Below are positions 2,128 through 61,715 of a stretch of DNA of 61,715 nucleotides, piece after piece. Each line of letters begins with the position of its first letter. Positions within the stretch are counted from its first letter, which is position 1. The notes under the pieces are model-generated. The model had not been told where the DNA came from. It ran no database searches and saw nothing but the letters and a program-made list of their open reading frames with translations. The translations under genes and the position numbers were made by a program. This DNA comes from Bacteroidaceae bacterium (GTDB taxonomy: Bacteria; Bacteroidota; Bacteroidia; Bacteroidales; Bacteroidaceae): contig JAFZFO010000004.1 of NCBI GenBank assembly GCA_017555845.1, forward strand, positions 1-61,715, given 5' to 3'.

Positions 2128-2143
2128 AGCTTGTGTGGTGCGT

Positions 2144-2168
2144 AAAAAAGCCTCCGGCTGGAGGCTTT
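2144..2168 (-). terminator. Terminator between the DUF4919-like gene and lrgA
   Basis: A perfect 9-bp stem (aaagcctcc at 2147-2155, ggaggcttt at 2160-2168) with loop ggct is followed on the minus strand by TTTTTT. It lies directly after the stop of the upstream gene and 17 bp before the lrgA start. Confidence 0.85.
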
Positions 2169-2173
2169 AGGTG

Positions 2174-2830
2174 TTATTCCCTTGAGGCTTGGGACAGGAA
2201 CAGGCTGATGTCAAAATATACTCGGTGGCCTGTGAATCTGTCCGATGGCTTGACTGTTACGATGTTGCACAGGGTTTCGGTGTCAAGTGTCTGGGAAATG
2301 ACGTTCTCAATCTGCAGCTTGCCGTACATGATGTAGTCCTGGTCATCGGGGGTAATGATGCGGAATGCGGTCTCGCTGCTTTTGCCGTCGCCGTAATGAC
2401 ATATCATGTCAATGATGCTCTGGTATTTCTTCAGGTATGAGATGCATTCCTCGTCGCTCTTGCCCAACTCCTTTGACGCAATGTAGATGCTGAAAAGTGC
2501 ATTGAGGCTTACGGGGTTGTAGGTAAGGATCTTCTTCGCCACATTGTACATCTCTACATTTTTTTTCTCCTCGTAAAGCTTTTTGAGCGCCTGCTCATTC
2601 TCATCCTTTCCCGGACGGTACTGTGGCAGGAATGCCTGGCCATAGTATATGAGCGCAATGTCATCGATGCGCAACATGGGATCATCGTTCCTGTATATTT
2701 CGGTTATCTGGTCGAAATATGTGCGCTCGTTCTTTACGATATCCTCAATGATCTCATTGTCGAGCACAACCTGGCTGTTGGCTGTGGCGCAGACAATGAA
2801 AAACATTATAAGTGAAAATATTCTCTTCAT
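2174..2830 (-). CDS. Secreted DUF4919-like protein
   Basis: This 218-residue protein has a clear Sec signal peptide (MKRIFSLIMFFIVCATANSQ). The mature part resembles the Bacteroidota DUF4919 family: an early IYYGQAFLPQY segment, a helical YNVAKKIL...NPVSLNALF segment, then a C-terminal beta-rich part. The ATG at 2830 is preferred over an in-frame TTG at 2836 because it begins the signal peptide directly and avoids overlap with the upstream amylase. It is the last gene of a fabD / GH13 / DUF4919 run on the minus strand. Function is unknown, probably envelope or periplasmic. The DUF assignment is from memory of the motif pattern. Confidence 0.75.
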   Translation of the reverse strand: MKRIFSLIMFFIVCATANSQVVLDNEIIEDIVKNERTYFDQITEIYRNDDPMLRIDDIALIYYGQAFLPQYRPGKDENEQALKKLYEEKKNVEMYNVAKKILTYNPVSLNALFSIYIASKELGKSDEECISYLKKYQSIIDMICHYGDGKSSETAFRIITPDDQDYIMYGKLQIENVISQTLDTETLCNIVTVKPSDRFTGHRVYFDISLFLSQASRE

Positions 2831-2832
2831 GT

Positions 2833-49438: not shown

Positions 49439-51427
49439 ATGAAACAGGAAAATGAAAATCCGACGGGATTGCCCGAAAACGCGTTCCGTCCACTCAACGA
49501 GGGCGAGGAGTACAAGCCTCTGATGTCGCCCGACAAGAAATACCCAGAGGTAAACGCATGGTCGGTGACTTGGGGAGTGCTCATGGCGGTGCTGTTCTCT
49601 GCTGCATCGGCCTATCTTGGCTTGAAAGTTGGCCAGGTGTTTGAGGCTGCAATTCCCATTGCAATCATTGCCGTGGGTATGTCAACACTTACAAAGCGCA
49701 AGAATGCTCTTGGCGAGAATGTAATCATCCAGTCTATCGGTGCATGCTCGGGTGTAATTGTTGCGGGTGCAATCTTTACATTGCCGGCATTGTATATTCT
49801 CAAGGAAAAATACCCCGAAATGACCGTGACATTCATGCAGATGTTCATCAGTTCATTGCTTGGCGGTATTCTTGGTATATTGTTCCTCATTCCTTTCCGC
49901 AAGTATTTTGTAAAGGAGAAGCATGGCGAATACCCATTCCCAGAGGCTACAGCAAGTACACAGGTGCTTGTGTCTGGCGAGAAGGGCGGCAGCCAGGCGA
50001 AGCCTCTGCTCATCGCAGGTCTCATAGGTGGTCTGTACGACTTTATCGTTGCTACATTCGGCTGGTGGAACGAGAACGTGACAACACGCATAGTAGGTTG
50101 GGGCGAGGTAGTTGCCGACAAGGCAAAGGTGGTGCTCAAGATCAATACCGGTGCCGCCGTGCTTGGTCTTGGATGTATCATCGGTCTCAAGTATGCTATC
50201 ATCATCTGCGTGGGTTCACTCCTCGTATGGTTGGTAATTGTTCCCGGAATGGGATTGATATTCGGCGATCAGGTGCTGAATATGTGGAACCCTGCCATCA
50301 CTGAGACTGTAGGTCAGATGTCGCCCGAGCAGATCTTCAGCAACTATGCAAAGAGCATTGGTATCGGTGGCATTGCAATGGCCGGTATCATCGGTATCCT
50401 CCGTTCATGGGGAATCATCAAGAGCGCTGCAAGCCTTGCTGCACGCGAGATGGGCAGCAAGAAAAGCGACACCAAGGAGGTGCGTACACAAAAGGACCTT
50501 TCAATGAAGGTTGTGCTCTTTGGCTCTGCATTCACTCTGTTGATGGTCTTCGCATTCTTCTTCCTCGATGTAATGAACGGCAGTATCCTGCAGAGCACCG
50601 TCGCTGTATTGCTTGTTGCTGTAATTTCGTTCCTCTTTACAACTGTTGCAGCAAATGCCATTGCCATTGTGGGTTCTAACCCTGTATCGGGCATGACATT
50701 GATGACTCTTATCCTTGCTTCGGTGATTATGGTTGCCGTTGGATTGAAAGGTTCATCGGGTATGGTTGCTGCGCTCATTATGGGTGGAGTGGTATGTACA
50801 GCACTTTCTATGGCAGGTGGCTTTATCACAGACTTGAAGATTGGTTATTGGCTTGGCTCTACACCTGCAAAACAGCAGACATGGAAATTCCTGGGTACAC
50901 TTGTGTCGGCAGCTACCGTTGCCGGTGTCATCATGATTCTTGACAAGACTTATGGCTTTACAAGCGGTGAACTTGCTGCGCCTCAGGCAAACGCCATGGC
51001 TGCAGTGATTGACCCATTGATGAGCGGTGTCGGCGCGCCATGGTTGCTCTACGGCATTGGTGCTGCGCTTGCATTGGTTTTGACATTCTGCAAGGTTCCT
51101 GCATTGCCCTTTGCACTCGGTATGTTCATCCCGCTGGAGTTGAACCTTCCTTTGCTTGTAGGTGGTCTTATCAACTGGTATATAACAACACGCAGCAAGG
51201 ATGCTGCATTGAATGCCGAGCGTGGCGAAAAGTGTACACTTCTTGCATCGGGCTTCATCGCCGGTGGTGCGCTGATGGGTGTGTTGAGCGCCGGCTTGCG
51301 CTTTGGCGGCATAAACATGGTAAACGAGCAGTGGCTTGCAAATCCAGGCAGCGAGGCAGTCTCTTTGGCAATGTATGCGTTGCTGATTGTATACTTGGTT
51401 AAGGCAAGTATGAAGATCAAGCGATAA
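49439..51427 (+). CDS. OPT family oligopeptide transporter
   Basis: This 662-residue protein has about 15 membrane helices and belongs to the OPT superfamily. The N-terminal NAWSVTWGVLMAVLFSAASAYLGLKVGQ region (shortened) and GEYPFPEATASTQVLVSGE and ANAIAIVGSNPVSGMTLMTL are characteristic of bacterial OPT proteins. It likely imports oligopeptides or metal-chelate complexes. It is monocistronic and shares a bidirectional terminator with the convergent MBL gene. Confidence 0.92.
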   Translation: MKQENENPTGLPENAFRPLNEGEEYKPLMSPDKKYPEVNAWSVTWGVLMAVLFSAASAYLGLKVGQVFEAAIPIAIIAVGMSTLTKRKNALGENVIIQSIGACSGVIVAGAIFTLPALYILKEKYPEMTVTFMQMFISSLLGGILGILFLIPFRKYFVKEKHGEYPFPEATASTQVLVSGEKGGSQAKPLLIAGLIGGLYDFIVATFGWWNENVTTRIVGWGEVVADKAKVVLKINTGAAVLGLGCIIGLKYAIIICVGSLLVWLVIVPGMGLIFGDQVLNMWNPAITETVGQMSPEQIFSNYAKSIGIGGIAMAGIIGILRSWGIIKSAASLAAREMGSKKSDTKEVRTQKDLSMKVVLFGSAFTLLMVFAFFFLDVMNGSILQSTVAVLLVAVISFLFTTVAANAIAIVGSNPVSGMTLMTLILASVIMVAVGLKGSSGMVAALIMGGVVCTALSMAGGFITDLKIGYWLGSTPAKQQTWKFLGTLVSAATVAGVIMILDKTYGFTSGELAAPQANAMAAVIDPLMSGVGAPWLLYGIGAALALVLTFCKVPALPFALGMFIPLELNLPLLVGGLINWYITTRSKDAALNAERGEKCTLLASGFIAGGALMGVLSAGLRFGGINMVNEQWLANPGSEAVSLAMYALLIVYLVKASMKIKR

Positions 51428-51442
51428 TCATTATACGACAAT

Positions 51443-51478
51443 AAAATAGCCACGCAAATTTTGCGTGGCTATTTTCGT
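51443..51478. terminator. Bidirectional terminator between OPT and MBL hydrolase genes
   Basis: A nearly loopless palindrome with 16-bp arms (aaaatagccacgcaaa at 51443-51458, tttgcgtggctatttt at 51460-51475) has T runs on both strands. It serves both convergent genes. Confidence 0.9.
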
Positions 51479-52117
51479 TTATCTTAAATACATGTTGTTT
51501 GTTTTCTCGAACTCTATCGTCGTCTCGCGGTCGTGGCCGGGGTAGACCGTCGTGTCTTCGGGTAAGGTCAGCAGTTTCTCGCGTATTGAGTATATCAGTG
51601 CACGGTGGTTGCTGTCGGGGAAGTCGGTACGTCCTATGCTGCCGCGAAACAAAGCGTCGCCACTGAATAGCATCTTGGCCTGGGGTACGTGGTAGGCAAG
51701 GCTGCCGGGAGAGTGTCCTGGAACCGAAATGGCAACGATGCGGCTATTGCCAAAGAGTATCTCATCGCCGTCGTTCAGTACGCGTCCAAGTGGTGGCACA
51801 TCTTCATCGTATCTCACTCCAAAGCGTGCCACACGCTCCTTGATGTTCTCGGCCCATGGCCAATCGGCATCGTTTGCACTGGCCTTTACTCCAAATGTCT
51901 CCTCAACGAATGCATTGCCGAAGATGTGGTCAAAATGCAGGTGTGTATTGAGATGATGCTTGAGTGTCAGGCCATTATCCTCTATGAATTTCCTTATCTG
52001 CTCCCTCTCCTGTGGAAACCATGCTCCGCAATCAATGAGGAGAGCCTCTTTGGTGTCATCCCATAGCAGATAGCAGTTTACCTGTATGGGGTTTACTATG
52101 AATTTCTTGAGTTGCAT
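51479..52117 (-). CDS. MBL-fold metallo-hydrolase (glyoxalase II-like)
   Basis: This 212-residue metallo-beta-lactamase-fold protein has the metal-binding motif THLHFDH near residues 58-64, GHSPGSLAYHV and a final YPGHDRETTIEFE. This matches the small Bacteroidota group annotated as hydroxyacylglutathione hydrolase-like. The substrate is unknown; the lack of glutathione in this lineage makes true glyoxalase II doubtful. It follows rsmG after 6 bp on the minus strand. Confidence 0.88.
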   Translation of the reverse strand: MQLKKFIVNPIQVNCYLLWDDTKEALLIDCGAWFPQEREQIRKFIEDNGLTLKHHLNTHLHFDHIFGNAFVEETFGVKASANDADWPWAENIKERVARFGVRYDEDVPPLGRVLNDGDEILFGNSRIVAISVPGHSPGSLAYHVPQAKMLFSGDALFRGSIGRTDFPDSNHRALIYSIREKLLTLPEDTTVYPGHDRETTIEFEKTNNMYLR

Positions 52118-52123
52118 ATTGGG

Positions 52124-52744
52124 TTAAATCTGTACGTAAACAACCTTCTTGTCTTTAAAATACTCCTCGGCAAAGTATGTGCTTACGTCAATTATTTCGC
52201 AGCTGTTCTTGAATGGGCGTGTCTCGGCTGTCATGTCGCCACCTTTGAGGCATATGATGCCGTTGGGCAGGGCATTGAACTGCTCGTTCGAGATGTTCTT
52301 GCGGCAAATCTTTACCAGGTCGGGCAACTGCATCACGGCGCGGCTCACCACAAAACTGTACTTGTCCTTGATCTCCTCGGCGCGGCTGTGGCTTGTACGT
52401 ACGTTCTCAAGTCCGATAGCCTGTGCAATCTCGCCGGCTACGCGCACCTTCTTGCCGATGCTGTCGACAAGGTGGAACTCAACCTCGGGGAACATTATTG
52501 CGAGAGGAATGCCGGGGAAACCGCCACCGCAACCCATGTCCATGATTTTTGTTCCGGGCTTGAAAGTGATATATTTTGCAATAGCCAAAGAGTGCTGTAC
52601 GTGGTGGAGATAGAGGTTCTCGATATCCTTACGTGAAATCACATTTATCTTGCTGTTCCAGTCGTAGTATAGGTCATAGAGTGCAGCGAACTGTTCTTTC
52701 TGTTTGTCGCTGAGGCCCGGGAAATACTTTATTATGTTTTCCAT
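52124..52744 (-). CDS. rsmG: 16S rRNA (guanine527-N7)-methyltransferase
   Basis: RsmG methylates N7 of G527 in 16S rRNA. The 206-residue Rossmann-fold enzyme has the SAM motif KIMDMGCGGGFPGIPLAI and an N-terminal helix bundle. FVVSRAVMQLPDLV is a later family motif. It overlaps the upstream lipoprotein stop by 1 bp and precedes the MBL gene, so the three genes likely form one operon. Confidence 0.95.
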   Translation of the reverse strand: MENIIKYFPGLSDKQKEQFAALYDLYYDWNSKINVISRKDIENLYLHHVQHSLAIAKYITFKPGTKIMDMGCGGGFPGIPLAIMFPEVEFHLVDSIGKKVRVAGEIAQAIGLENVRTSHSRAEEIKDKYSFVVSRAVMQLPDLVKICRKNISNEQFNALPNGIICLKGGDMTAETRPFKNSCEIIDVSTYFAEEYFKDKKVVYVQI

Positions 52745-53559
52745 TATTTCATTATGTCTTTTAGTGTTTCGTAGTCAAGTGATATAAGTATGTCGCCCAT
52801 TGCATAAGGCGCTATCTCGTATCTGTTGTAGAGGAATGTGATGCTGTCATTGCCAAGAATGAAGTTATTTGTTATGTTCATCTCAATATCAATGAAGTAT
52901 CCTTTCTCGCCAAGTCCTTCAATGGTTGACACTCCTTCATCCTCCATGAGTTTGCGTGTAAGCATTGTGATCAATGTGTCTTCATAATCCTCTTTGAACA
53001 GGTTGTTGAGAGTTATTTCAGTTCCTGTTGCGGGGTCAAAGCAGACAATTGTGTTCACAGTGTTGGGGTGTGCACCTCCATGGTACTCCTCGCATGTCAT
53101 TATATAGCTGATGTAGCCTTTATAACCTGTGATTGTCTTACCGTTGATATCCCAATAACAGCCCATCATACCCGGTGGAATTCCACTTTCCTTGAGGTTC
53201 AGGTATTCGGCTTGCAGTTCGTTGAAAAACTCTTTCTGTGTAGCAACGCATTGGTTGCAGGCATCTTTCAACGTTGGAGCGTCACTAAAGAACAAGCCCC
53301 AGGCCAGTGTGCTGTCAAGCCTTGCGGTTGCCTGCTCATTGCCAAGGTCAAAACGTGGCAGAGTGATGTCTATTGTCAGTTTGGGAGCATTCTCCTTGTC
53401 GTAAGCAAAGGTGTATTGCTCGTGTATCCTTATTGTGTCAATTGTTATGGATTTTTCCTCAATAGAAGACAATTGCGCTGTGTTTTCCTTTTTGTCTATG
53501 TTACATGCAAAAAGGAAAAATAATGCTGAATAAATGATAATTGCAGTGCACTTTTTCAT
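52744..53559 (-). CDS. DUF3298-like lipoprotein
   Basis: This 271-residue predicted lipoprotein has a signal MKKCTAIIIYSALFFLFACN with lipobox LFAC. The C-terminal half (CEEYHGGAHPNTVNTIVCFD, then LNNLFKEDYEDTLITML) matches the DUF3298 / RsiV-like periplasmic family, and the N-terminal half resembles the associated DUF4163. Members such as RsiV bind lysozyme in other bacteria, but there is no sigma factor gene adjacent. It is first in a run with rsmG. A -7 box TACCTTTG lies at 53590-53597. Confidence 0.82.
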   Translation of the reverse strand: MKKCTAIIIYSALFFLFACNIDKKENTAQLSSIEEKSITIDTIRIHEQYTFAYDKENAPKLTIDITLPRFDLGNEQATARLDSTLAWGLFFSDAPTLKDACNQCVATQKEFFNELQAEYLNLKESGIPPGMMGCYWDINGKTITGYKGYISYIMTCEEYHGGAHPNTVNTIVCFDPATGTEITLNNLFKEDYEDTLITMLTRKLMEDEGVSTIEGLGEKGYFIDIEMNITNNFILGNDSITFLYNRYEIAPYAMGDILISLDYETLKDIMK

Positions 53560-53589
53560 ATCACAATTGTTTATCAGTTACAGGAGAAC

Positions 53590-53597
53590 CAAAGGTA
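53590..53597 (-). promoter_or_regulatory. Promoter -7 box of the DUF3298-rsmG run
   Basis: TACCTTTG on the minus strand matches TAnnTTTG, about 31 bp upstream of the start codon at 53559. Confidence 0.5.
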
Positions 53598-53726
53598 GTG
53601 CTTTTGGGATAAAACGGCAAGAAAGTAACAGTTGTTTTTCTTTTTGCACCATTATTTTCTGTGGCCCGGACAGACAAAACGGCATACATTGGGACCTGCG
53701 AGTGTTAACTGCTAAATTTTGTTTCT

Positions 53727-53936
53727 ATGAAAGTTTGTAATTTTTTGGCCTTTACCGGCGGAATGTTGGCCGGTGGTCTTGTGATGATGATGTTTGCGCC
53801 CAAGAAAGGCGAGGATATGCGCAAGGATATCAAGGAGAGACTTGGTGACTTGAAAAGACATTTCGACAATGCCGGCTGTTGCGGTAAGGAGGGATGCGAC
53901 TGCAAGGTAGAAGAAAAGATTGTAGTCGAAGAATAG
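53727..53936 (+). CDS. YtxH domain-containing small protein
   Basis: This 69-residue protein has one N-terminal membrane segment (FLAFTGGMLAGGLVMMMF) followed by APKKGEDMRKDIKERL, the YtxH signature. A C-terminal cysteine cluster, CCGKEGCDCK, is unusual for YtxH and could bind a metal. It leads a run of three small genes. Function unknown; YtxH proteins are often envelope-stress related. Confidence 0.82.
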   Translation: MKVCNFLAFTGGMLAGGLVMMMFAPKKGEDMRKDIKERLGDLKRHFDNAGCCGKEGCDCKVEEKIVVEE

Positions 53937-53961
53937 AATGCTTTTTTGAGGAATAGAATGT

Positions 53962-54315
53962 ATGGGATTTAGAGCCGATATTGAAAATATATCAAAGGAT
54001 GCTCTTGAGTATTTGAAGAGGGGCATAGATGGATGCAAATTGAGTCTGATTGAGAATCTGTCGCTTTTGTTCGGTGATATCATCTGCTTTTTTGTACTGT
54101 CTATGCTCCTCTTTGTTGCCTATCTGGCACTGATGGTGGCTATTGTCATTATGTTGTTGCCTGTGATTGGTCTGCCGTTGGCAATTGTTGCAGTAGCACT
54201 GTTGCTGTTTATTACGGCAATGGTGCTGTATGTGCTGAGGGAGCATCTTTTTGCAGACAGGATGGTAAAGCGTTTTGCAAAAATGTTTTTTGAGGAGAAG
54301 GGAGATGAAAAGTGA
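53962..54315 (+). CDS. Phage holin superfamily III-like membrane protein
   Basis: This 117-residue protein has two long membrane helices (about 38-62 and 66-92) after an amphipathic N-terminus (IENISKDALEYLKRGIDGCKL). It resembles the holin_3_6 / DUF1469 group, which is chromosomal and not necessarily phage derived. It follows the YtxH gene after 25 bp and overlaps the next small gene by 11 bp. In Bacteroidales this trio is typical and its role is unknown. Confidence 0.8.
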   Translation: MGFRADIENISKDALEYLKRGIDGCKLSLIENLSLLFGDIICFFVLSMLLFVAYLALMVAIVIMLLPVIGLPLAIVAVALLLFITAMVLYVLREHLFADRMVKRFAKMFFEEKGDEK

Positions 54316-54520
54316 TTTGGTAAGGATAACTTCGTTACGGGAGCTACGTACTGCACGCCAGGCAAATGAGAGGGCGCGCATGGCTGCATGTGAAAGGATG
54401 AAAAATAGGATAGATGAGGTGTTATCATTCGGCGGACTCTTTCTTGCGATAGTCAAGGAGTGTACTCCAATGGGCGTGAAAAGCGTAATAGAGAGAGTAT
54501 TTTCTTGTTTGAAGGAATAA
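54305..54520 (+). CDS. Small hypothetical protein of the YtxH cluster
   Basis: This 71-residue protein is basic at its N-terminus (LRELRTARQANERARMAACERMK) and has a short hydrophobic segment (SFGGLFLAIVK). ATG 54305 overlaps the end of the holin-like gene by 11 bp, supporting coupled translation. No domain is recognised. Confidence 0.65.
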   Translation: MKSDLVRITSLRELRTARQANERARMAACERMKNRIDEVLSFGGLFLAIVKECTPMGVKSVIERVFSCLKE

Positions 54521-54557
54521 TAAAGCCTTTTTATACTGCTTGCTGAACTTTTTTTTA

Positions 54558-54565
54558 TAGTTTTG
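54558..54565 (+). promoter_or_regulatory. Promoter -7 box of the GNAT gene
   Basis: TAGTTTTG matches TAnnTTTG; transcription would begin near 54572, about 18 nt before the proposed TTG start at 54590. Confidence 0.5.
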
Positions 54566-54589
54566 TATAGAACTATGAAATATTGAGCT

Positions 54590-55105
54590 TTGGCAAGACG
54601 CACAACCAACATAAACATACGCAAGGCGACAAGCGATGACGTTCCGGCGCTGATGCACTTATTTGAGTGTGCAAAGGCCATTATGCGTGCAAGTGGCAAC
54701 TTGCACCAATGGGGTGTAGGGTATCCGTCGGTCGATGTTGTGAGGCGTGATATTGAACAGGGGGTGTGTTATGTGGCAACTGATGGCGTAGATGGAGAAA
54801 TTGAGGCTACAATGGCGTTCATTGAAGGACCGGATCCTACGTATTCATATATTGAAAACGGAGCGTGGTTGAACGATGAACCGTATCATGTCATACATCG
54901 CATCGCTGTTGCCACACCGGGCAATGGGTATGCCAAGAATCTGCTTGATTGGGCATTCGGGCATACCGGAACAATCCGTATAGACACGCATCGTGACAAT
55001 GTCATAATGCGACACGTACTTGGCGAATACGGATTTGGATATTGTGGTGTGATCTATCTTGCAAATGGCGATGCACGTGATGCTTATCAGCTTACAATAA
55101 GCTGA
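54590..55105 (+). CDS. GNAT family N-acetyltransferase
   Basis: This 171-residue acetyl-CoA-dependent transferase starts NINIRKATSDDVPALMHLF; the acetyl-CoA loop is VATPGNGYAKNLLDWAF near residues 110-125. It carries a GYCGVIYL beta-strand at the end, typical of Bacteroidales GNATs. The only in-frame start that retains the whole first strand is TTG 54590. Substrate unknown. It is followed by repeat sequence, then the MATE gene. Confidence 0.87.
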   Translation: MARRTTNINIRKATSDDVPALMHLFECAKAIMRASGNLHQWGVGYPSVDVVRRDIEQGVCYVATDGVDGEIEATMAFIEGPDPTYSYIENGAWLNDEPYHVIHRIAVATPGNGYAKNLLDWAFGHTGTIRIDTHRDNVIMRHVLGEYGFGYCGVIYLANGDARDAYQLTIS

Positions 55106-55275
55106 AATGTTAAAACGGAAAACGGAAAGCTGCGAGTTGGCGATAATCACACGTTTCTACCTTTAATCACGCTGTCGTGTGCTTAAACCTCGGCCTCACT
55201 CGTTGCGTGTGTGAGCAGGCTTCAACCCTCTCGTTTTTACAAGTTTTCACCTTTCACCTTTCAGTTTTCAGTTTC
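55106..55275. repeat. Intergenic dispersed-repeat sequence before the MATE gene
   Basis: This 170-bp stretch contains gttaaaacggaaaacgg, aaacctcgg and ttttcacctttcacctttc, which are the reverse-complement words of the 49040-49275 repeat region. A partial stem uses cacgctgtcgtg at about 55169-55180. No gene is present. Confidence 0.5.
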
Positions 55276-55313
55276 AATTGTTATTTTTGCGGTAAATAGC
55301 AAAAATAACAATT
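55276..55313 (+). promoter_or_regulatory. Perfect inverted repeat covering the MATE promoter and leader
   Basis: 15-bp perfect arms aattgttatttttgc (55276-55290) and gcaaaaataacaatt (55299-55313) are separated by 8 bp and the right arm abuts the ATG at 55314. The left arm includes a -7 box TATTTTTG (55282-55289). This is either an operator for a dimeric regulator or an mRNA hairpin next to the start codon. Confidence 0.65.
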
Positions 55314-56669
55314 ATGGCAGGCAGAGACGATATAGATTTTGGAACCGCGAAGATATCGAGACTTTTTACAAAGATGTTCATTCCAACTCTGTTGGGAATG
55401 GTCAGCTGGTCATTGCTGACTGTGATTGACGGTGTTTTTGTGGGCCGTGGAGTAGGCAGCAACGGAATTGCGGCAATCAATATATGTTATCCTATTTTCC
55501 TTTTGCTTACAGGTTTTGCACTTATGGTGGGAATGGGTGCTTCAGTGGTGGCATCAATCCATTTGTCGCAGAACAATGTCAAAGCGGCACGCATAAACGT
55601 GACACAGGCAGTGTGGTTCTCTACATTTGTTGTAGTGGGAGCGATGCTGGCCGTAATGCTGGCTCCTGAGCAGTTGGCATATATGCTCGGCGCATCGGAA
55701 ACGCTGATGCCTTTGGTGAGGGACTATATGGTTTACCTTATCCCTTCGGGTATCATGCAGATGTGGTCTGTGGTGGGTCTGTTTGTCATTCGCCTGGATG
55801 GCTCGCCCAAATATGCAATGTGGTGCAACGTTGTACCGGCTGTACTCAACATCTTCTTTGACTGGCTTTTCATCTTCCCGCTTGGTATGGGTGTGAAGGG
55901 TGCTGCAATTGCATCGGCTATAAGTACGGTTATCGGTGGTTTGATGGCTTTCGTGTATTTGGTAAAATATGCACGTACGTTGAAGATGAGCGGAGTGAAG
56001 ATGTCGCCCGTCAGTCTGACACTTTCTATAAGAAATATCGCCTATCAATGCAAGATCGGATTCTCGGCTCTGCTTGGCGAAGTTACAATGGCATTGTTGC
56101 TGTTTGCCGGTAACTTTGTGTTTATGAAGCATCTTGGCGATGCCGGTGTGGGCGCTTATGGCGTTGCGTGTTACTATACGCCGTTTGTCTTTATGTTCGG
56201 TAATTCAATAGCGCAATCGGTACAGCCCATTGTGAGCTATAACTATGGACTTGGACGATGGGACAGAGTGAACAAAACTCTTTCAATCTCGCTGCGCGCA
56301 GCAGTGCTCAGTTCTCTTGTCTCAATTGTGGCATTTACGCTTTTCCCACAGCACCTTGTGCACCTGTTCATTGGCGATAGTGACCCGGCTGCACAGATTG
56401 CCATTGCCGGCTTCCCATATTTTGCAACAGGCTTCCTGTTTTTTATCACTAACCTGGTTGTGATAGGCTTTTTACAGAGTATAAAGAAATCGGCCCCAGC
56501 GACACTCTTTGCATTGTTGCGTGGAGTGGTGTTCCTGTTTCCGGCATTCTTCCTTTTGCCCGAAGTACTTGGAGTTAAAGGTATATGGCTTGCACTGCCG
56601 CTGTCGGAGTTGTTGACTTTTATTGTTGTGGTGTGCTATGCCTTTGTAGTCCGCAAGAGAAAGGTATAG
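55314..56669 (+). CDS. MATE family efflux transporter
   Basis: This 451-residue membrane protein has 12 predicted helices in two halves. LFTKMFIPTLLGMVSWSLLT and IDGVFVGRGVGSNGIAAINI (contiguous in the protein, split here) are typical MATE N-terminal motifs; AQSVQPIVSYNYGLGRWDRV is the second-half counterpart. It likely exports drugs or organic cations driven by Na+ or H+. The substrate is unknown. A symmetrical element over its promoter suggests tight control. Confidence 0.92.
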   Translation: MAGRDDIDFGTAKISRLFTKMFIPTLLGMVSWSLLTVIDGVFVGRGVGSNGIAAINICYPIFLLLTGFALMVGMGASVVASIHLSQNNVKAARINVTQAVWFSTFVVVGAMLAVMLAPEQLAYMLGASETLMPLVRDYMVYLIPSGIMQMWSVVGLFVIRLDGSPKYAMWCNVVPAVLNIFFDWLFIFPLGMGVKGAAIASAISTVIGGLMAFVYLVKYARTLKMSGVKMSPVSLTLSIRNIAYQCKIGFSALLGEVTMALLLFAGNFVFMKHLGDAGVGAYGVACYYTPFVFMFGNSIAQSVQPIVSYNYGLGRWDRVNKTLSISLRAAVLSSLVSIVAFTLFPQHLVHLFIGDSDPAAQIAIAGFPYFATGFLFFITNLVVIGFLQSIKKSAPATLFALLRGVVFLFPAFFLLPEVLGVKGIWLALPLSELLTFIVVVCYAFVVRKRKV

Positions 56670-56850
56670 TAGCAAATCAAAAAGAATGATTATTGAAACT
56701 AAGGTCTAACGGTAGCTTTTACCCTTAATCTTTGATTGTACATTCTTTTAAATTCTTTCAATCTTGTACTTTTTGAAAAAAAAGTACCAAAAATATCGGC
56801 ACACGGGCGCATCATTGCAATGATTTATTCATTGGCATGTTTCGCGGACT
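56670..56850. other. Gap with hairpin-associated repeat motif
   Basis: This 181-bp gap between the convergent MATE gene and the membrane-protein gene holds a hairpin with 9-bp arms gtacttttt (56766-56774) and aaaaagtac (56779-56787), followed by cggcacacggg (56797-56807). The same arrangement occurs at 215-259. It is a dispersed noncoding motif. Confidence 0.5.
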
Positions 56851-57564
56851 TTATCGCTGCCACCCCTCGACGCGGTACACCTTTTCCATCAGTTTGCGTT
56901 CCTTGCCTGTCTTGGCATCGTTGTGCCAAACCTCGATGCGAGCGGCGTAGTAATCGCCCCAATCACCGGGATAGATTTTGAAGCACTGCTTTTCAACTAC
57001 TTTTGAGAATGAAGTGGTAGAGGGTGTTGCTACCATGCTTGCGGCCGAAATGCGCTCGGGCGAGAGCGGTATGTTTTCAGTTGCCTCGTAGCAACGCAGG
57101 AATACTTCACCTTCTTCAAGTGCGGGGTAATAGAAGTCGTATGTGTACATTCCTCCTTGAAAGTCGTTCCAGATTTGCAGCCAGGTGTTAGATGCAATGC
57201 TGTCGATGGGGCAGGGCAGTTCTTCTCTTTCTTCAAAAGGAATATTGTATGCCAATGTGGTTGGTATGGGGTGCTCCTTGCCAAAATCATCAGGGCCGGG
57301 GTTGAACATTTGTTCTATACCTATGCATAACAAGTAGATAAAATAGATTACCGTCAGCGCTCCCAATATGAACGAAAACAGAAATCTCCACCACTTTTTG
57401 AATATGAGCAGCAGAACCCACGTCACGATCATTGCCACGAATGTCAGGAGTGATGAAATAGCCCAGAAATGTGGCGTTGTTAAAACGCATTTGATGGGAA
57501 TAAACAGCGATGCAGCAAAAAGCACTGGAAACAGCCACCAGAATCTATTGATGAAGTTTTTCAT
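56851..57564 (-). CDS. Membrane protein of unknown function
   Basis: This 237-residue protein has four predicted helices in residues 1-95 (FWWLFPVLFAASLFIPI, FWAISSLLTFVAMIVTWVLLL as two, then FLFSFILGALTVIYFIYLL), followed by a soluble domain of about 140 residues rich in Trp and Tyr (YYPALEEGEVFLRCYEATE, WGDYYAARIEVWH). I do not recognise a family. It is a single gene, and lies between the MATE gene and the right-end accessory cassette. Confidence 0.6.
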   Translation of the reverse strand: MKNFINRFWWLFPVLFAASLFIPIKCVLTTPHFWAISSLLTFVAMIVTWVLLLIFKKWWRFLFSFILGALTVIYFIYLLCIGIEQMFNPGPDDFGKEHPIPTTLAYNIPFEEREELPCPIDSIASNTWLQIWNDFQGGMYTYDFYYPALEEGEVFLRCYEATENIPLSPERISAASMVATPSTTSFSKVVEKQCFKIYPGDWGDYYAARIEVWHNDAKTGKERKLMEKVYRVEGWQR

Positions 57565-57703
57565 AGTTTTGTTTGTGTTTTGATTTTTTAATAAAACGCG
57601 CCCATTGTGAGTTTATTGCCATAAAGGAAGTTAAAGAATATTAATGCGGACGTAAAATATTTAAGTGGTCAAAAGTTTTTTTAAGCTATGCCATTATTTG
57701 GCG

Positions 57704-57722
57704 TAGGTTTGCTATATATTTG
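57704..57722 (+). promoter_or_regulatory. Overlapping promoter boxes of the WYL gene
   Basis: TAGGTTTG at 57704-57711 and TATATTTG at 57715-57722 both match TAnnTTTG. The second would start transcription near 57729, about 28 nt before the ATG at 57757. Confidence 0.5.
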
Positions 57723-57756
57723 CGATAAACTATGAAATTCGCGAAAAATTCCAACT

Positions 57757-58698
57757 ATGAACAATGACAAAGGGCAAGGCTTGATGAACAAATATGTGTG
57801 GGTAATAGAAACCATACATAGACACAAGAAACTTTCGTTCAGGGAACTGAATGAACTGTGGCTCAATGATGATATAAGCATGGGGGTAGAACTTCCTAAA
57901 CGTACATTCGATAACTGGAGATATGCCATCTGGGATATATTTGGGCTGAACATTTCAAACGAGCAAAAGGGTAGATACCGTTATTTTATTGAGAACGAGG
58001 AGGACATAACCGGCAATGGCCTTTCATCGTGGCTTTACAGCACGCTAAGCATTGCGAATACACTTTCCGGCAGCCAAAGTATAAAAGAACGTATTCTGCT
58101 TGAAAACATACCATCGGGGCAAGAGTACCTGCAGCCGATTATTGATGCAATGAAAGCAAACCTACAGCTGAATATCACTTACAAGAGTTATTGGAGTGAT
58201 GAAGAGTGCTGTTTTGATGTAAAACCTTATTGCGTAAAGCTATTCAAGCAGCGCTGGTATATGGTTGCGAAAAGCACTCACGCTTATTACAATGACAAGC
58301 CGCCGATGATTTATTCACTTGATAGAATATTGCAGCTTACGGTAAAGCAAGAAACATTTGAAATGCCGGCAGATTGGAATGCGCAGGAGTATTTTGAGGG
58401 GTGCTTCGGTGTTTGCCGCAGTATTGATATTGAACTCGTGAGATTGAAGGTGTCGGCAAAGCAAGCGAATTATATACGCGACCTGAAACTACACGATACA
58501 CAGGAAGAGGTTGAACACAACGATAAATTCAGTATATTTACATACCGCTTACGCCCGGAATATGACTTCCAACAGGAACTGCTACGCCATGGCGAAGATG
58601 TTGAAGTACTTGAACCGCAGTGGCTGCGCGAAGAGATAGCCGGGAAAGCAAAGCTGATGTGGGAAAAGTATGAGAGTGAAAAGAGAATGGGAGAATAA
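57757..58698 (+). CDS. WYL-domain transcriptional regulator
   Basis: This 313-residue protein has an N-terminal DNA-binding region (KLSFRELNELWLNDDISMGVELPKRTFDNWR, abbreviated to about residues 25-55, winged-helix-like) and a central WYL domain of about residues 130-200, with the signature RWYMVAK (the usual WYL reads WYM here) and PPMIYSLDRI. The C-terminal WCX-like part follows. WYL proteins sense ligands such as nucleotides and often repress or guide defence-island genes. It is 17 bp upstream of the nuclease gene and likely controls it. ATG 57784 is an alternative start. Confidence 0.88.
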   Translation: MNNDKGQGLMNKYVWVIETIHRHKKLSFRELNELWLNDDISMGVELPKRTFDNWRYAIWDIFGLNISNEQKGRYRYFIENEEDITGNGLSSWLYSTLSIANTLSGSQSIKERILLENIPSGQEYLQPIIDAMKANLQLNITYKSYWSDEECCFDVKPYCVKLFKQRWYMVAKSTHAYYNDKPPMIYSLDRILQLTVKQETFEMPADWNAQEYFEGCFGVCRSIDIELVRLKVSAKQANYIRDLKLHDTQEEVEHNDKFSIFTYRLRPEYDFQQELLRHGEDVEVLEPQWLREEIAGKAKLMWEKYESEKRMGE

Positions 58699-58715
58699 TA
58701 ACTATTATCATACTT

Positions 58716-60059
58716 ATGGAAAGCATAATAACTGATACACAAAAATTTGAAGACTATTCTTCAATTTTATCATTAGCAGAAAAGTATGTTGCCAAAAAAC
58801 ATGAAGTAATAAACAAATATCCTTATCATGTAAATCCCATTGAAGAATTACATGCTAAAGAAACTGCCAACAGCCGCATACTTTGTGCTATGCTACGTTA
58901 CCAACACAATGGGGAATATAAAATTTTGAAGAGCTTTGCAAGAAAGTTTATCACTGAATTTAACTCAAAATTAGATATAGGAACAAATCCTATAATTGAG
59001 GCCGAACAATATCGAATAGACTTATCAGTGCGTGAGCCTGGCAAGTATGCTCTTATTTTTGAAAATAAGATTCACGATGCAGTATTACAAAAAAACCAGT
59101 TAGCTCGATACATAAGAAAGCTGCAAACGGAGGAAGGGTTTAGACTTGATCAAATATATATTGTCTTTTTGCCATCTTCAAAAGACTACGAACCAAATGA
59201 TTGTAGCTGGCACGATTGGGAGGAGTGCTGTGACAAGTGCAATCAACAAGAATGCTCATTGAAGTACAAAAAACCAAAACTTCGCGAGGATTTTAAGAAT
59301 CGTTATCACACAGTCACATTTCGAGAGAATGTATTGAATTGGTTAAAAGAGGATGTTTTGCTTTCCGTGAACGAAAATGAGGTATTATTAAGATCGTCTG
59401 TGATACTTTATATTGACTATTTGGAAGGCCTCTTTGAATTAAGAACAAACGAAAAAGAAATGTATATGGAAATAAAAGATTTTATTGTTGAGAGATTAAA
59501 TCTTAACGATGAGGACCTAGAGGGTAAAATAAATGTCTTGCAGAAGAAAAAAGAAAACATTGAGAAACTAAATGGAGAGATTGAGAAACTGAGAGTTTTC
59601 TATATGCAGGAGCTAATAAAAGAGAAATTGGAACCTATTGTTGAAAATATTGCAAAATCCAAAGATTTGCAGTATGATTTGAGGATTTGTTATGATGAAA
59701 ATCGTATGTTTTGCATAGGTTTCAAAAAAGGAGATTGGGATTTGTATATTCTTTTTGATTGCTTTACGACTTACGGAATGACCTTTTATATTGGTAAACA
59801 TTTTTTGGAACCTATTAGTGGATATTCATGTCATAAATGTATAAATGGATGGAATGTTGATGATGATAAAGAAAAATATCCTCACGGATGGGAGTGGTTG
59901 AAAAAATACGAAAATAAAATATTAGATTTGCACCGTGATGTAACAGTAGATGATGGTGCTGAATTTAAAAGATTTTTAGAAGACAAATTGTATCGTACTC
60001 TTAAAGAGATAGAAGGGCATCCTAATGAAATAACTATGAAAATCTCTAGTTCTCAATAA
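58716..60059 (+). CDS. PD-(D/E)XK nuclease superfamily protein
   Basis: This 447-residue protein has a PD-(D/E)XK (PF14281-like) core: ANSRILCAMLRYQ at 51-63, then Asp102 in RIDLSV and Glu116-x-Lys118 in IFENKI, followed by QKNQLARYI. These are the D and E-x-K metal and catalytic residues. A cysteine-rich stretch (ECCDKCNQQEC) near 170-185 is a possible zinc site. Residues 255-300 are coiled-coil-like (KKKENIEKLNGEIEKL). The C-terminal 140 residues are a distinct alpha/beta domain (FCIGFKKGDWDLYILFD). The nucleotides are AT-rich compared with the core genes, which suggests acquisition. Likely a DNA-cleaving effector. It ends at a strong terminator. Confidence 0.85.
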   Translation: MESIITDTQKFEDYSSILSLAEKYVAKKHEVINKYPYHVNPIEELHAKETANSRILCAMLRYQHNGEYKILKSFARKFITEFNSKLDIGTNPIIEAEQYRIDLSVREPGKYALIFENKIHDAVLQKNQLARYIRKLQTEEGFRLDQIYIVFLPSSKDYEPNDCSWHDWEECCDKCNQQECSLKYKKPKLREDFKNRYHTVTFRENVLNWLKEDVLLSVNENEVLLRSSVILYIDYLEGLFELRTNEKEMYMEIKDFIVERLNLNDEDLEGKINVLQKKKENIEKLNGEIEKLRVFYMQELIKEKLEPIVENIAKSKDLQYDLRICYDENRMFCIGFKKGDWDLYILFDCFTTYGMTFYIGKHFLEPISGYSCHKCINGWNVDDDKEKYPHGWEWLKKYENKILDLHRDVTVDDGAEFKRFLEDKLYRTLKEIEGHPNEITMKISSSQ

Positions 60060-60087
60060 TAAAATATCCTTAATATTTATTTCTCTC

Positions 60088-60125
60088 GACCTCTGCCACA
60101 GCTTGGCAGAGGTCTTTTCTTCTTT
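60088..60125 (+). terminator. Terminator between nuclease and zincin genes
   Basis: A perfect 11-bp stem (gacctctgcca at 60088-60098, tggcagaggtc at 60104-60114) with a 5-nt loop is followed by TTTTCTTCTTTT. It lies 29 bp past the nuclease stop and 24 bp before the next start. It would separate the downstream genes unless there is readthrough; no clear TAnnTTTG box is seen for them. Confidence 0.85.
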
Positions 60126-60148
60126 TGTACGGAATTAATTTATGTAGT

Positions 60149-60550
60149 ATGAAAGTACAAGGAAAAACAACTGAAGATTTGAAAGCAATGCTTCTTGCTA
60201 TATATGATTGCAAGTTGCCTTTTGCTATTAGAATCTCAAAAAGAAAATGTAAAAGAATTCTTGCGTCATATACGCATCGAAATTCTACAATAACTATCTA
60301 TGACCTGAAAGGAACGGCCGATATTGTGCAGGTAGCGATACACGAATATGCGCACCATATAAATAGGACAGAGTGGTGGAATGGCGCCGCGCCTATGTCA
60401 AAATTTGAAACATCCCACGGGTATCGGTTCTGGTTCCTTTACAGTAGATTAGTGGAACTTGCAAATGAGAAAGGATATGCAGTCAAACCACATTATTACG
60501 GCAGAGCTGGGATTTCGTTTAAAAAGGAAATTTTAGGAATATGGGAATGA
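60149..60550 (+). CDS. HExxH zincin-like metallopeptidase domain protein
   Basis: This 133-residue protein has VAIHEYAHHIN with a consensus HExxH zinc site (His65, Glu66, His69) and a third candidate ligand in SHGYRFWFLYSRLVEL (His90). The HExxH...HGxxFW spacing resembles SprT-like and YgjP-like minimal zincins. It should be a small cytoplasmic metalloprotease with no signal peptide. ATG 60149 is preferred over the frame start at 60125. It overlaps the FtsZ-like gene by 4 bp (ATGA at 60547-60550), so the two products are probably made together. Confidence 0.8.
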   Translation: MKVQGKTTEDLKAMLLAIYDCKLPFAIRISKRKCKRILASYTHRNSTITIYDLKGTADIVQVAIHEYAHHINRTEWWNGAAPMSKFETSHGYRFWFLYSRLVELANEKGYAVKPHYYGRAGISFKKEILGIWE

Positions 60551-61500
60551 AAATTATTAAAGAAAAAAAAGAATTTGGTTTGTCAGATGTACTGATTGTT
60601 GGTGTAGGCGGTGGCAGTGGTAACATCATTAGTGACCTTGTTGGTTGGGGTATAGGTATTGATACCGCAGTTGTTGATAATACTGAACAACCCGATATTG
60701 ATGCATTATTAAATGAGGAAATACGAACGGTATTTATTGTAACTTGTCTTGGTGGTGAATATGGCTCAGCCGTTGCACCACAGATTGCTGCCGAATGCAG
60801 GAAAAGAAAACTAAGGACTATCGGTGTTGCTACATTGCCGTTTGAGTTTGAAGGTAGCGTGAAGGCACAGCGTGCGAAGGATGCCGCAAATGAACTTGCA
60901 AAGAATTGTGATTCCCTTAACCTTGTACATAATGAAATAATGTTGAAGAGCAATCAAGGCATTGCTGTAAATGAAGCATTTAAGGATATCGACATCTGCA
61001 TTCATGAGATTGTCACCAAAGAACTTTATTCAGTCCCTGAGTGGTTTTTTGGTGTAAGTCGTGGGTATGTTCTCAAGTGTTGGTTTAAGAAGTTTTTCGG
61101 GTGGTTACATAAGAATGATGGGGCTTTGGTTTGTAAATCTTTCAAAGAGAATGATTATAAGATAACCCGTTTGTGCATTGATATTGTGGAGCGGAAAGCC
61201 AAGAAGATTATGGGAAAAGAGTGGTTCCGTCACCTTGGAGACCACATAAAGTTTATAGCTTTGTGTAATACTATAATACATGAACTTATTGAAGAAAGTG
61301 GTTCGTTTTTATTGTGTGATAAAATTGTGAGTGATGTACTGACTATCACTAGAATATGGCCTATTGAAAGTTGGCTGCAATACTATGAAGAAGTAGATTA
61401 TAGCAAAATAGACGAACTTGAAAATGCACATAAGGCAAGTGCTAGAATATGTAAAAGAAAAAGAGAATTGCTCTCCTCGTTGAACAATGCTACCGAGTAA
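60547..61500 (+). CDS. Divergent FtsZ/tubulin-superfamily protein
   Basis: This 317-residue protein has an FtsZ-like N-terminal GTPase domain: VLIVGVGGGSGNII at about residues 15-28 (T1 loop, FtsZ GVGGGGGN) and VFIVTCLGGEYGSAVAP at about 62-78 (T4 loop, FtsZ GGGTGTG altered to GGEYGSA). VATLPFEFEGSVKAQRAKDA at about 94-113 and SLNLVHNE match the FtsZ PFxFEG helix and the base-binding Asn. The segment between strands 2 and 3 is shorter than in FtsZ, and the C-terminal half (160-317) has no T7 NxDxxD loop. GTP binding is plausible; polymerisation and hydrolysis are uncertain. It overlaps the zincin gene by 4 bp. Confidence 0.82.
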   Translation: MKIIKEKKEFGLSDVLIVGVGGGSGNIISDLVGWGIGIDTAVVDNTEQPDIDALLNEEIRTVFIVTCLGGEYGSAVAPQIAAECRKRKLRTIGVATLPFEFEGSVKAQRAKDAANELAKNCDSLNLVHNEIMLKSNQGIAVNEAFKDIDICIHEIVTKELYSVPEWFFGVSRGYVLKCWFKKFFGWLHKNDGALVCKSFKENDYKITRLCIDIVERKAKKIMGKEWFRHLGDHIKFIALCNTIIHELIEESGSFLLCDKIVSDVLTITRIWPIESWLQYYEEVDYSKIDELENAHKASARICKRKRELLSSLNNATE

Positions 61501-61517
61501 CAGAAATTATAAAATAT

Positions 61518-61601
61518 ATGGAAGAACAAACAACAGTCGGGTTTTATGCTTTTATATGCTGCTATTTCAAGGATAGGTTACCTGGACAAAAAGTAGGATG
61601 A
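61518..61601 (+). pseudogene. Gene truncated by the insertion-sequence end
   Basis: An ATG 18 nt after the FtsZ-like stop begins a frame MEEQTTVGFYAFICCYFKD whose 19 native codons end at 61574; the frame then runs 8 codons into the inverted repeat (RLPGQKVG) and stops at 61599-61601. The spacing and the coding-like composition suggest the next gene of the cassette, interrupted by the IS. The remainder is not in the window and its product cannot be named. Confidence 0.6.
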
Positions 61602-61652
61602 TTTGAGTTGAAAAAACTCTTATTGGACAAAAAGTAGGATGATTCCCTCAGC
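61575..61652. repeat. Right arm of 78-bp terminal inverted repeat, probable IS end
   Basis: This arm is the exact reverse complement of 1-78, with two copies of ggacaaaaagtaggatgat 41 bp apart. The junction with native sequence is at about 61575, where it interrupts the gene after the FtsZ-like gene. Confidence 0.75.
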
Positions 61653-61675
61653 AGAGCGCGCTCTGCTGAGGGAAT
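61642..61675. other. Perfect 34-bp palindrome in the IS end
   Basis: A loopless 17-bp-arm palindrome (half-site attccctcagcagagcg) overlaps the inner edge of the inverted repeat. It lies just after the stop of a minus-strand gene, so it may act as its transcription terminator; it could also be an assembly fold-back. Confidence 0.6.
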
Positions 61676-61681
61676 TCGCGC

Positions 61682-61715
61682 CTAATAATGCCTCATGATA
61701 TATTCATCCAACAAC
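61682..61715 (-). CDS. C-terminal end of an IS gene, partial
   Basis: On the minus strand the frame LLDEYIMRHY ends at a TAG at 61682-61684 and continues beyond the window. Its position inside the repeat side of the junction suggests a transposase or IS accessory protein. Too short to identify. Confidence 0.45.
   Translation of the reverse strand, partial: LLDEYIMRHY

Follow-up and report, generated by a model that had tools for sequence, protein, structure and literature searches.

The closest precedents for the locus described here are regulation by BrxR and CapW and the FtsZ/tubulin superfamily members noted in conflict systems. The site bound by BrxR is an inverted repeat of 11 bp with a spacer of 5 bp (PMC9122601), and CapW represses in both directions from a palindrome (PMC9122588). 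MoxR-vWA conflict systems include rare FtsZ/tubulin-superfamily effectors, and inactive enzyme copies have been proposed as decoys there (Kaur et al. 2020, PMC7159879). Among divergent relatives of FtsZ, FtsZl1 carries a long coiled coil and an alpha-helical C-terminal domain, and FtsZl2 has an alpha/beta region of ~300 amino acids and keeps all loops (Makarova and Koonin 2010, PMC2875224). The sequence TAnnTTTG is reported as the Bacteroidetes -7 element (PMC7366714). Here, we analyzed the end of a 61,715-nucleotide stretch of a Bacteroidaceae genome (the window; contig JAFZFO010000004.1, assembly GCA_017555845.1), which encodes a WYL regulator, a PD-(D/E)XK nuclease, an HExxH zincin and an FtsZ-like protein. 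At the level of sequence, the analysis showed two units with a shared palindrome geometry, a nuclease with an intact motif, a SprT-type zincin, an FtsZ reduced to its N-terminal domain (FtsZ-N, or short FtsZ), cargo that is swapped between genomes and an empty chromosomal site. From these features we infer WYL binding, induction by phage, phage defense and a role for the FtsZ fragment, and we give an even chance to the reading that this is an inducible anti-phage (conflict) locus with two operons under one WYL repressor.

Two units and the palindromes in front of them

The four open reading frames (ORFs) look like two units, WYL plus nuclease and zincin plus FtsZ-like, rather than one cassette. 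The first-pass annotation, made from the same DNA, had described four consecutive plus-strand genes with 17 bp between regulator and nuclease, which ORFs and Pfam confirmed; its 4-bp overlap of the zincin and FtsZ-like genes (ATGA) holds if the latter starts at ATG 60547, and grows to 10 bp from ATG 60541. The AT-richness it reported is real: the G+C content of 57704–61601 is 0.367, whereas 107 other stretches of this length averaged 0.474 and had a minimum of 0.441. It had not recorded the 5' end of a fifth gene, the two palindromes with -7-like boxes or the restriction of the FtsZ match to the N-terminal part.

The regulator matched Pfam WCX (1.2e-14, 54.8 bits; cutoff 23.9) and WYL (5e-10, 39.7 bits; cutoff 21.8) as well as solved WYL regulators (2.7e-5 to 6.6e-5), and it alone among the four cassette proteins matched PADLOC models at E≤1. 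The ORF of its relative in genome G362 is intact. Like a BrxR-type regulator, it combines WYL and WCX domains with an 11-5-11 repeat at its own promoter (57683–57709, 9 of 11 arm positions paired).

Each unit has its own upstream 27-bp palindrome (11-bp arms, 5-bp spacer), followed at a fixed distance by a Bacteroidetes-type -7-like box. With our position weight matrix (PWM), the palindrome at 57683 scored 19.6, and 20 shuffled windows reached 13.5 at most; it has TTTG at +10 and is present at the same site in L003, a Bacteroidaceae metagenome-assembled genome from yak rectum with the same locus as genome G380. The palindrome at 60088, itself a member of the training set, scored 38.3, with all 11 arm positions paired and TTTG at +10. 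The box before the WYL gene fits TAnnTTTG fully; the box before the zincin keeps TTTG and lacks TA.

Sites of this pattern also stand in front of other WYL genes and of units with a zincin or FtsZ gene; those of WYL genes and FtsZ-bearing units come from three families of the order. TTTG begins at exactly +10 from the palindrome in 23 of 27 site/direction instances and at +11 in three more (background 0.72% per position; the motif model excluded the TTTG bases). A letter-free geometry scan, which asked for 27 bases with 9 or more of the 11 arm positions paired and TTTG at +10, hit the 61.7-kb window at two places, one of these on both strands, and had no hit in 77 housekeeping loci (509,140 strand-bases), a control that left out L120, L112 and L113, which contain the cassette. 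The PWM was trained on 14 sites that it later found; the independent tests are the position of TTTG and the geometry scan, and related loci are not mutually independent. WYL paralogs at 32–33% identity showed the same geometry with other letters in four loci (L031, L032, L034 and L036). Before short-FtsZ units with readable upstream sequence (n = 10), the letter model or the geometry test gave a box in eight (window, G380, G350, G381, G461, G151, G081 and G185); the upstream regions in G362 and G365 were unreadable. At L172, the first codon of the FtsZ-N ORF precedes the palindrome and another ATG follows it. A search for the best palindrome upstream of WYL genes returned mixed AT-rich palindromes only and was replaced by the motif-based scans. 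The signature of an 11-5-11 palindrome with TTTG at +10 could be used to list WYL-type cargo in these bacteria without knowledge of the proteins.

Table 1 Features of the locus at the end of the window.
Feature	Position	Strand	Basis
Predicted WYL operator, 27-bp imperfect palindrome AAGCTATGCCA-TTATT-TGGCGTAGGTT	57683..57709	+	PWM, geometry, same site in L003
-7 box TATATTTG, predicted WYL-nuclease promoter	57715..57722	+	fits consensus TAnnTTTG
WYL/WCX regulator, 313 aa	57757..58698	+	Pfam, PDB, dN/dS
PD-(D/E)XK (PDDEXK_4) nuclease, 447 aa	58716..60059	+	Pfam, L003 copy
Predicted second WYL operator, perfect 27-bp palindrome GACCTCTGCCA-CAGCT-TGGCAGAGGTC	60088..60114	+	PWM, geometry
-7-box-like TTCTTTTG, predicted zincin-FtsZ promoter	60120..60127	+	position after palindrome
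HExxH zincin, 133 aa, SprT-like by motif	60149..60550	+	alignment of 6 relatives, dN/dS
Truncated FtsZ (FtsZ-N), 319 aa	60541..61500	+	Pfam, PDB, alignments, trees
5' fragment of TIR-like gene, begins MEEQTTVGFYAFICCYFKD	61518..61582	+	similarity to L003 protein
Repeat-bearing sequence, contig end; putative insertion-element end	61583..61715	.	repeats

The FtsZ fragment and its partner proteins

The FtsZ-like protein matched the Pfam Tubulin/FtsZ GTPase domain (7.6e-12) and scored 64.1 bits with TIGR00065, far below the cutoff of 295.2 for cell-division FtsZ. Its match to FtsZ in PDB (1.2e-14) covers residues 35–158, the N-terminal domain up to about helix H7; the FtsZ-N region spans residues ~1–160 and is followed by a new C-terminal extension (~161–319; 61021–61497). 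FtsZ-N keeps the glycine-rich T1 and T4 regions, T5 (PFEFEG) and the T6 region. Unlike the FtsZ of the same genome (463 aa), it has neither a T3 nor a T7 loop and no C-terminal domain, and these absences weaken the earlier suggestion of an assembly scaffold. The T7 loop (GxxNxDFxDV-like in three full-length rows) and the C-terminal domain are absent from all six short rows of the alignment and likewise from a second alignment of short forms.

A profile search of 393 genomes of the order returned four more short ORFs (G151, G274, G081 and G185; E = 1e-45 to 1.8e-39), placed above every full-length FtsZ among the matches listed, and a family profile search returned one more, in G501; E-values are inflated for rows in the query alignment, namely G461 in the family search and the window in the order search. 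The order count leaves out open frames of 239–306 aa in G137, G084 and G149, which scored among the full-length FtsZs. All five additional proteins keep T3 and a GGGCGTG T4 loop and end before T7. In a tree, nine short forms from three families of the order split from 27 full-length FtsZ rows with 100/100 support, and a tree of the N-terminal domain alone gave the same split (SH-like approximate likelihood-ratio test, 100). Of 27 loci tried for full-length rows (L002 plus alternate loci from two sets), 26 gave sequences, one of them a tandem pair; a near-copy in G362, the G365 fragment and the G461 ORF were left out of the trees. As judged from these alignments and trees, the FtsZ fragments are a distinct N-terminal-domain-only group found in defense-like islands. 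Neither this group nor the palindrome-TTTG signature was found described in the open-licence literature searched. The window protein had no match to PF13809 (Tubulin_2), which we take to be the FtsZl1 family, at E≤1, and one relative matched it at 0.039. Separately, tandem FtsZ paralogs, seen as two matches ~1.2–1.4 kb apart, occur in several genomes of the family, at G491:C8, G408:C199, G543:C26, G517:C21, G477:C4, G556:C7 and G501:C2.

The nuclease matched Pfam PDDEXK_4 (6.7e-13) and by eye has an intact D...ENK motif, in keeping with its proposed role as an effector. It is 66% identical to the L003 copy, which matched the PADLOC candidate PDC-S26 at 1.2e-11; a relative in G381 matched PDC-S26 at 3.3e-32, and the window nuclease itself gave no PADLOC match at E≤1, PDC-S26 included. 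By these matches of its relatives, the nuclease probably belongs to a family already described. The set had been put forward as undescribed, and no named system matched it. The comparison with defense profiles that had been called for gave no PADLOC hit for the window zincin or FtsZ-like protein, nor for one related zincin and two short FtsZs.

The zincin reached the cutoff of no Pfam family (best 0.21), although HEYAHH is visible. Its motif reads HEYAHH...SHGYRF, and H65, E66, H69 and H90 are invariant in an alignment of six relatives. It therefore has HExxH followed by HG, which we take to be the SprT-like protease motif, without a qualifying Pfam SprT-like score; a relative at L039 scored 21.1 bits with SprT-like (2.8e-4), below the cutoff of 25.6. 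A zincin profile against solved structures returned nothing significant. SprT-type proteases act on DNA-protein crosslinks.

Downstream of FtsZ-N, the window holds the start of a TIR-like gene, 79% identical to residues 1–24 of the L003 protein, with similarity stopping near 61574; the remainder was not found in the window's genome (G000, 83% complete) at E≤1. The L003 protein is intact (206 aa, with a C-terminal hydrophobic stretch) and matched Pfam TIR_2 weakly (0.0035) and a Sinorhizobium TIR protein at 9e-13. It lacks the C-terminal half kept by five full-length relatives and has A where these have E (column 101). This glutamate is the residue required of an active TIR NADase, and the window copy is cut before its position. 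A TIR-like gene follows the FtsZ-like gene in G380 and the window only. A conserved FtsZ-like plus TIR core was considered and rejected: the eight closest TIR loci, read by eye for ~1.5 kb on either side, contained neither FtsZ nor zincin, and in six of them a tetratricopeptide-type protein adjoins the TIR gene. TIR-transmembrane (TIR-TM) proteins of 374–386 aa in L054–L060 and L071, most of them with a tetratricopeptide-type protein as neighbor, seem to form a conserved operon type of their own.

The insertion sequence reported next to the genes could not be confirmed: a 21-bp direct repeat and a 34-bp perfect inverted repeat lie in the final 133 bases, which gave no PLSDB plasmid match at E≤1e-3 and run up to the contig end. 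On the other side, the eight upstream genes tested (49439–57564) are ordinary: an OPT transporter, a metallo-beta-lactamase fold protein, GidB, DUF3298, MatE and others without a family above cutoff.

Recurrence, chromosomal sites and neighbors

We searched 44 genomes of the genus, the window's included, and found the FtsZ-like protein in six, once as a fragment at a contig end. G381 (L012) has the exact order WYL-nuclease-zincin-FtsZ-like at a chromosomal site different from that of the window. In G350, a UDG-like gene (Pfam UDG 0.0036, below cutoff) takes the place of the nuclease between WYL and the zincin and FtsZ-like genes; the same arrangement apparently holds in G362, where it is split over two contig ends, the first with WYL and the UDG-like gene and the second with the zincin and FtsZ-like genes. 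G380 carries WYL, nuclease, FtsZ-like and TIR-like genes without a zincin. Thus, of the recurrence that the first-pass annotation had proposed to look for, the zincin and FtsZ-like pair does recur, while the exact four-gene order was found in 1 of the 43 other genus genomes. G461, from another genus of the family, carries genes for a WYL protein and a PDDEXK_4 nuclease, with a DnaQ-like exonuclease and an ATPase besides. Its zincin belongs to the family of the window zincin (36% identity), and a 169-aa ORF without a Pfam match is, in our reading, an FtsZ-like protein that has diverged strongly (20% identity).

Two chromosomal sites were seen. One, common to the window, G380 and G365, has a MATE gene upstream and, as seen in G380 and G365, an ABC-F gene on its downstream side; in G350, G362 and G381 the genes lie between katA and mutS instead. 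Among 30 mutS loci read (41 genus genomes have mutS), three hold the cassette and 17, including that of the window's own genome, have katA directly beside mutS; the others hold lgt (4) or another gene (2) or are cut by contig ends (4). The cassette is therefore accessory at this site. No integrase was seen by eye among the ORFs at the cassette loci there. A plasmid or phage origin was considered and rejected, PLSDB plasmids containing nothing close to the FtsZ-like protein or the zincin of the window: among the matches listed (in one case the best 30 of 103) identity was at most 41%, and all records were below 60%. The matches listed look like ordinary FtsZ genes, many annotated ftsZ and others unannotated. 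Viral contigs contained no FtsZ-like gene, no TIR gene and no exact palindrome, and zincins at two loci. The phage zincin at L051 has no related neighbors by eye; on the viral contig L050 (IMGVR_UViG_3300020112_002646, 1415–3195), UDG-like and PLD-like genes (by eye) accompany the zincin, and a palindrome of the same geometry lies just upstream of it at 2768.

Short FtsZs were found at 12 loci, 10 of them with readable flanks (G365 and G501 are cut by contig ends), and a zincin is close by in seven of the ten: window, G350, G362, G381, G461, G151 and G185. G151 has a bpMoxR gene (1.1e-53), a vWA gene and, adjacent to FtsZ-N, a YgjP-like zincin gene. The G185 island includes FtsZ-N, a 340-aa protein and a YgjP-like zincin; its nuclease matched PDC-S26 weakly (9.4e-5) and gave no PDDEXK_4 hit, and an AAA ATPase, a DUF2201 vWA protein and, by eye, a UDG-like gene are also present. 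G081 has two proteins read as DUF262-like (the first matching HEC-06, the second without a PADLOC hit), FtsZ-N, a 370-aa protein and WYL, with no zincin or PD-(D/E)XK gene nearby by eye. In G274, FtsZ-N is accompanied by a DnaB-like ATPase and, by eye, two DUF262-like proteins. In two genomes of one family, a 340- or 370-aa protein lies directly 3' of FtsZ-N (L175 6377–7396 and L174 7206–8318); the L175 protein reached the cutoff of no Pfam family. At L043, L045 and L046, a WYL gene of the same family is followed by two large DUF262-looking genes (by eye), with a DnaQ-like exonuclease in L043 and L045.

Reduced copies of other essential machines lie near some of these genes, a pattern that consists of a handful of loci noticed while reading rather than a counted enrichment. 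A 371-aa GyrB-like gene is divergent from WYL at L010 (6130–7245), L012 (10853–11968) and L042 (1620–2735). DNA_gyraseB matched at 2.7e-18 in L010 and 3.9e-19 in L012, with no Toprim match in either; by PDB alignment, WEVVDN of GyrB reads RGLLCC in the L010 protein, and the ATPase Glu and Asn positions are changed. DnaB_C fragments of 145 and 203 aa were found in L040 and L173; the latter locus has neither WYL nor zincin in view and is tied in through its FtsZ-N. At L052 (G208:C52, 3076–6489), truncated FtsK_gamma, FtsK-motor-like and DnaE-like genes directly follow a zincin of the window family; in the 360-aa DnaE-like protein, ~72 residues replace ~190 of what we take to be the palm region.

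Possible roles and comparison with known systems

In the reading we prefer, a WYL dimer would sit on both palindromes and hold both units off until infection or DNA damage released it. The nuclease would attack nucleic acid, and the FtsZ fragment would replace FtsZ at one of its binding interfaces as a counterfeit subunit. Our tentative first choice for the fragment is a poison that, by binding or capping host FtsZ, would stall the division of infected cells. Zincin and fragment are probably co-translated, and the zincin might cut the fragment or its binding partner, which is the weakest step. With limited confidence, we extend the idea to switchable arsenals of truncated, partly catalytically dead copies of essential multimeric machines (FtsZ, GyrB, DnaB, DnaE and FtsK), often close to a zincin of the SprT/YgjP type and in some cases downstream of a WYL-boxed promoter, with the window fragment as one of them. 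The ground for this counterfeit-subunit reading is the occurrence of reduced GyrB, DnaB, DnaE and FtsK copies near the same WYL or zincin families. If it is true, WYL derepression on infection would let the copies either poison the host machines that the phage needs or bind up phage proteins directed against these machines. The related FtsZ fragments in similar islands of other gut bacteria suggest switchable fake essential parts for conflict with phages, and raise the question of whether bacteria turn defective versions of their own essential machines against phages.

Several observations weigh against this reading. In the window's genus, the T3 loop is deleted and T4 is altered (GGEYGS), which makes GTP binding and GTP-dependent capping doubtful there and favors a decoy over a poison. 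Short FtsZs are sparse: the 6 of 44 genus genomes above, 5 of 261 family genomes and, among the matches listed in the order search, the window's own and 4 of 393. No zincin is near FtsZ-N in G380, G274 or G081; in G501, none of the window's family was found at E≤1e-3. L052 shows no WYL gene or palindrome box in the stretch read, and the L173 DnaB-like and L052 FtsK-motor-like proteins keep a P-loop-like motif by eye, so not all copies look dead. The ratio of nonsynonymous to synonymous rates (dN/dS) of the FtsZ-like gene is 0.43 between the window and L003, compared with about 0.10 for the window zincin, and 0.26–0.90 among G350, G362 and G381, on a handful of changes; selection on it appears relaxed or diversifying. 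For the boxes, only 11 of 25 WYL rows, some of which repeat a locus, had de novo palindrome geometry upstream, the match in L025/L043 looks unrelated, and controls gave 6 of 1166 stretches and 20 of 272 AT-rich ones, with the window's own sites counted in. At PWM≥9, 258,020 control bases gave nine matches, one being the cassette in L120. Neither the letter model nor the geometry scan found a box before the G501 short FtsZ, and the G274 box is weak (letter score 11.8, under the shuffle maximum of 13.5; arms 8/11, failing the geometry test). The letter scores before FtsZ-N in G081 (13.3) and G185 (12.1) are also below that maximum, these sites passing the geometry test only, and the site before WYL in L174 scored 12.8 with arms 5/11. 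Both window palindromes are listed as terminator-like (five such sites in the window; mean 3.3 in shuffles).

Ranked second, and rather unlikely in our estimate, is that the fragment is a decoy or guard, a bait for phage proteins that attack FtsZ, which would spare FtsZ or signal infection to the zincin, or in G380 to the TIR-TM protein. The degradation of the GTP loops in the window's genus while the PFEFEG-T6 region is kept fits a bait, as does the short FtsZ that shares an island with a bpMoxR-vWA pair. Precedents are the FtsZ/tubulin effectors and inactive-copy decoys of MoxR-vWA systems (Kaur et al. 2020, PMC7159879) and the phage T5 protein Hdi, reported to target FtsZ (PMC10714956). A harmless decoy would not obviously need tight repression, however, and the short FtsZs outside the genus keep T1–T6. 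We know of no phage partner of a short FtsZ.

The single dedicated system proposed by the first-pass annotation, with the nuclease as effector, the FtsZ-like protein as sensor or scaffold and the zincin as activator, now seems improbable. Its exact order does recur in G381 at another chromosomal site, and WYL, PDDEXK_4, zincin and the very divergent FtsZ-like ORF lie within about 6 kb in G461. Nevertheless, the two halves have separate boxed promoters, the UDG-like gene replaces the nuclease in G350 and apparently G362, the zincin is missing in G380, and the G081 short FtsZ has neither partner nearby. With cargo swapped between genomes, we rejected a single conserved four-gene system; what survives of the earlier proposal is a defense-type locus, not one cassette of that exact set.

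Similarly low is our estimate that the 60088 palindrome is merely the intrinsic terminator of the nuclease gene and that WYL controls its own operon alone. The 11-pair stem followed by T-rich DNA would suit a terminator, and the site before WYL is likewise terminator-like, with 8 pairs. In L012 and L042, however, and less regularly in L010, WYL and the divergent GyrB-like gene are separated by a palindrome of the same kind; there is nothing to terminate there, so it cannot be merely a terminator at these loci, and the fixed position of TTTG in 23 of 27 instances is a further point against this reading.

We give equally little credence to a decaying remnant, in which defense genes are losing function, with a broken TIR gene and a shortened FtsZ. 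The cut TIR-like gene of the window, the L003 protein without the glutamate and C-terminal half of its relatives, and the FtsZ-like dN/dS values would fit decay. The zincin of the window, by comparison, has its dN/dS of about 0.10 against the G350 and G381 copies (G350–G381, 0.21), and WYL has 0.08–0.10 against three relatives (G350–G381, 0.24); short FtsZ is kept open as one distinct group over three families, and the promoter pattern is conserved. The nuclease value is 0.22 (window versus L003). The FtsZ-like gene is also a mosaic between the window and L003, with 98 of 113 residues identical at 48–160, 19 of 44 at 1–47 and 45 of 89 at 231–319. Its dS among G350, G362 and G381 (0.016–0.028) is far below that of zincin (0.25) and WYL (0.13) between G350 and G381, consistent with recent exchange of this gene alone.

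Least probable is a WYL-controlled DNA-damage stress locus without a specific anti-phage role, which the crosslink activity of SprT-type proteases would suit, and which patchy presence, swapped cargo and DUF262-like, PDC-S26-like and MoxR-vWA neighbors usual for defense islands argue against; some WYL regulators (SiwR, PafBC and DriD) are reported to respond to DNA damage or genotoxic stress.

Compared with known systems, the window FtsZ-like protein shares the T1, T4, T5 (PFEFEG) and T6 regions with FtsZ (TIGR00065) and the tandem FtsZ paralogs, and differs from FtsZ in lacking the T7 loop and C-terminal domain and in forming a distinct group in trees. Like FtsZl1 and FtsZl2, it is a divergent FtsZ-tubulin relative with an altered C-terminal part. 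PDC-S26 resembles the nuclease relatives in G381 and L003, which it matched, and not the window nuclease itself. SprT-like and YgjP-like metallopeptidases share HExxH and a later HG with the window zincin, and the zincins near short FtsZ in L172 and L175 are YgjP-like, whereas the window zincin matched no such Pfam model at E≤1. With MoxR-vWA/GAP1-N2 conflict systems, the locus shares FtsZ/tubulin members and inactive machine copies, and the L172 short FtsZ lies beside a bpMoxR-vWA pair; unlike them, the eight window proteins at 49439–57564 and the four cassette proteins gave no MoxR or vWA Pfam match, downstream sequence being cut by the contig end, and none was seen by eye at L003, L010 or L012. 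BrxR and CapW differ in that the window cargo is neither BREX nor CBASS, and that its boxes stand before several separate cargo units with a Bacteroidetes-type -7 box. The likeness to these two regulators lies in a WYL protein with a C-terminal domain, a palindrome at the regulator's own promoter and, for BrxR, the same 11-5-11 box geometry.

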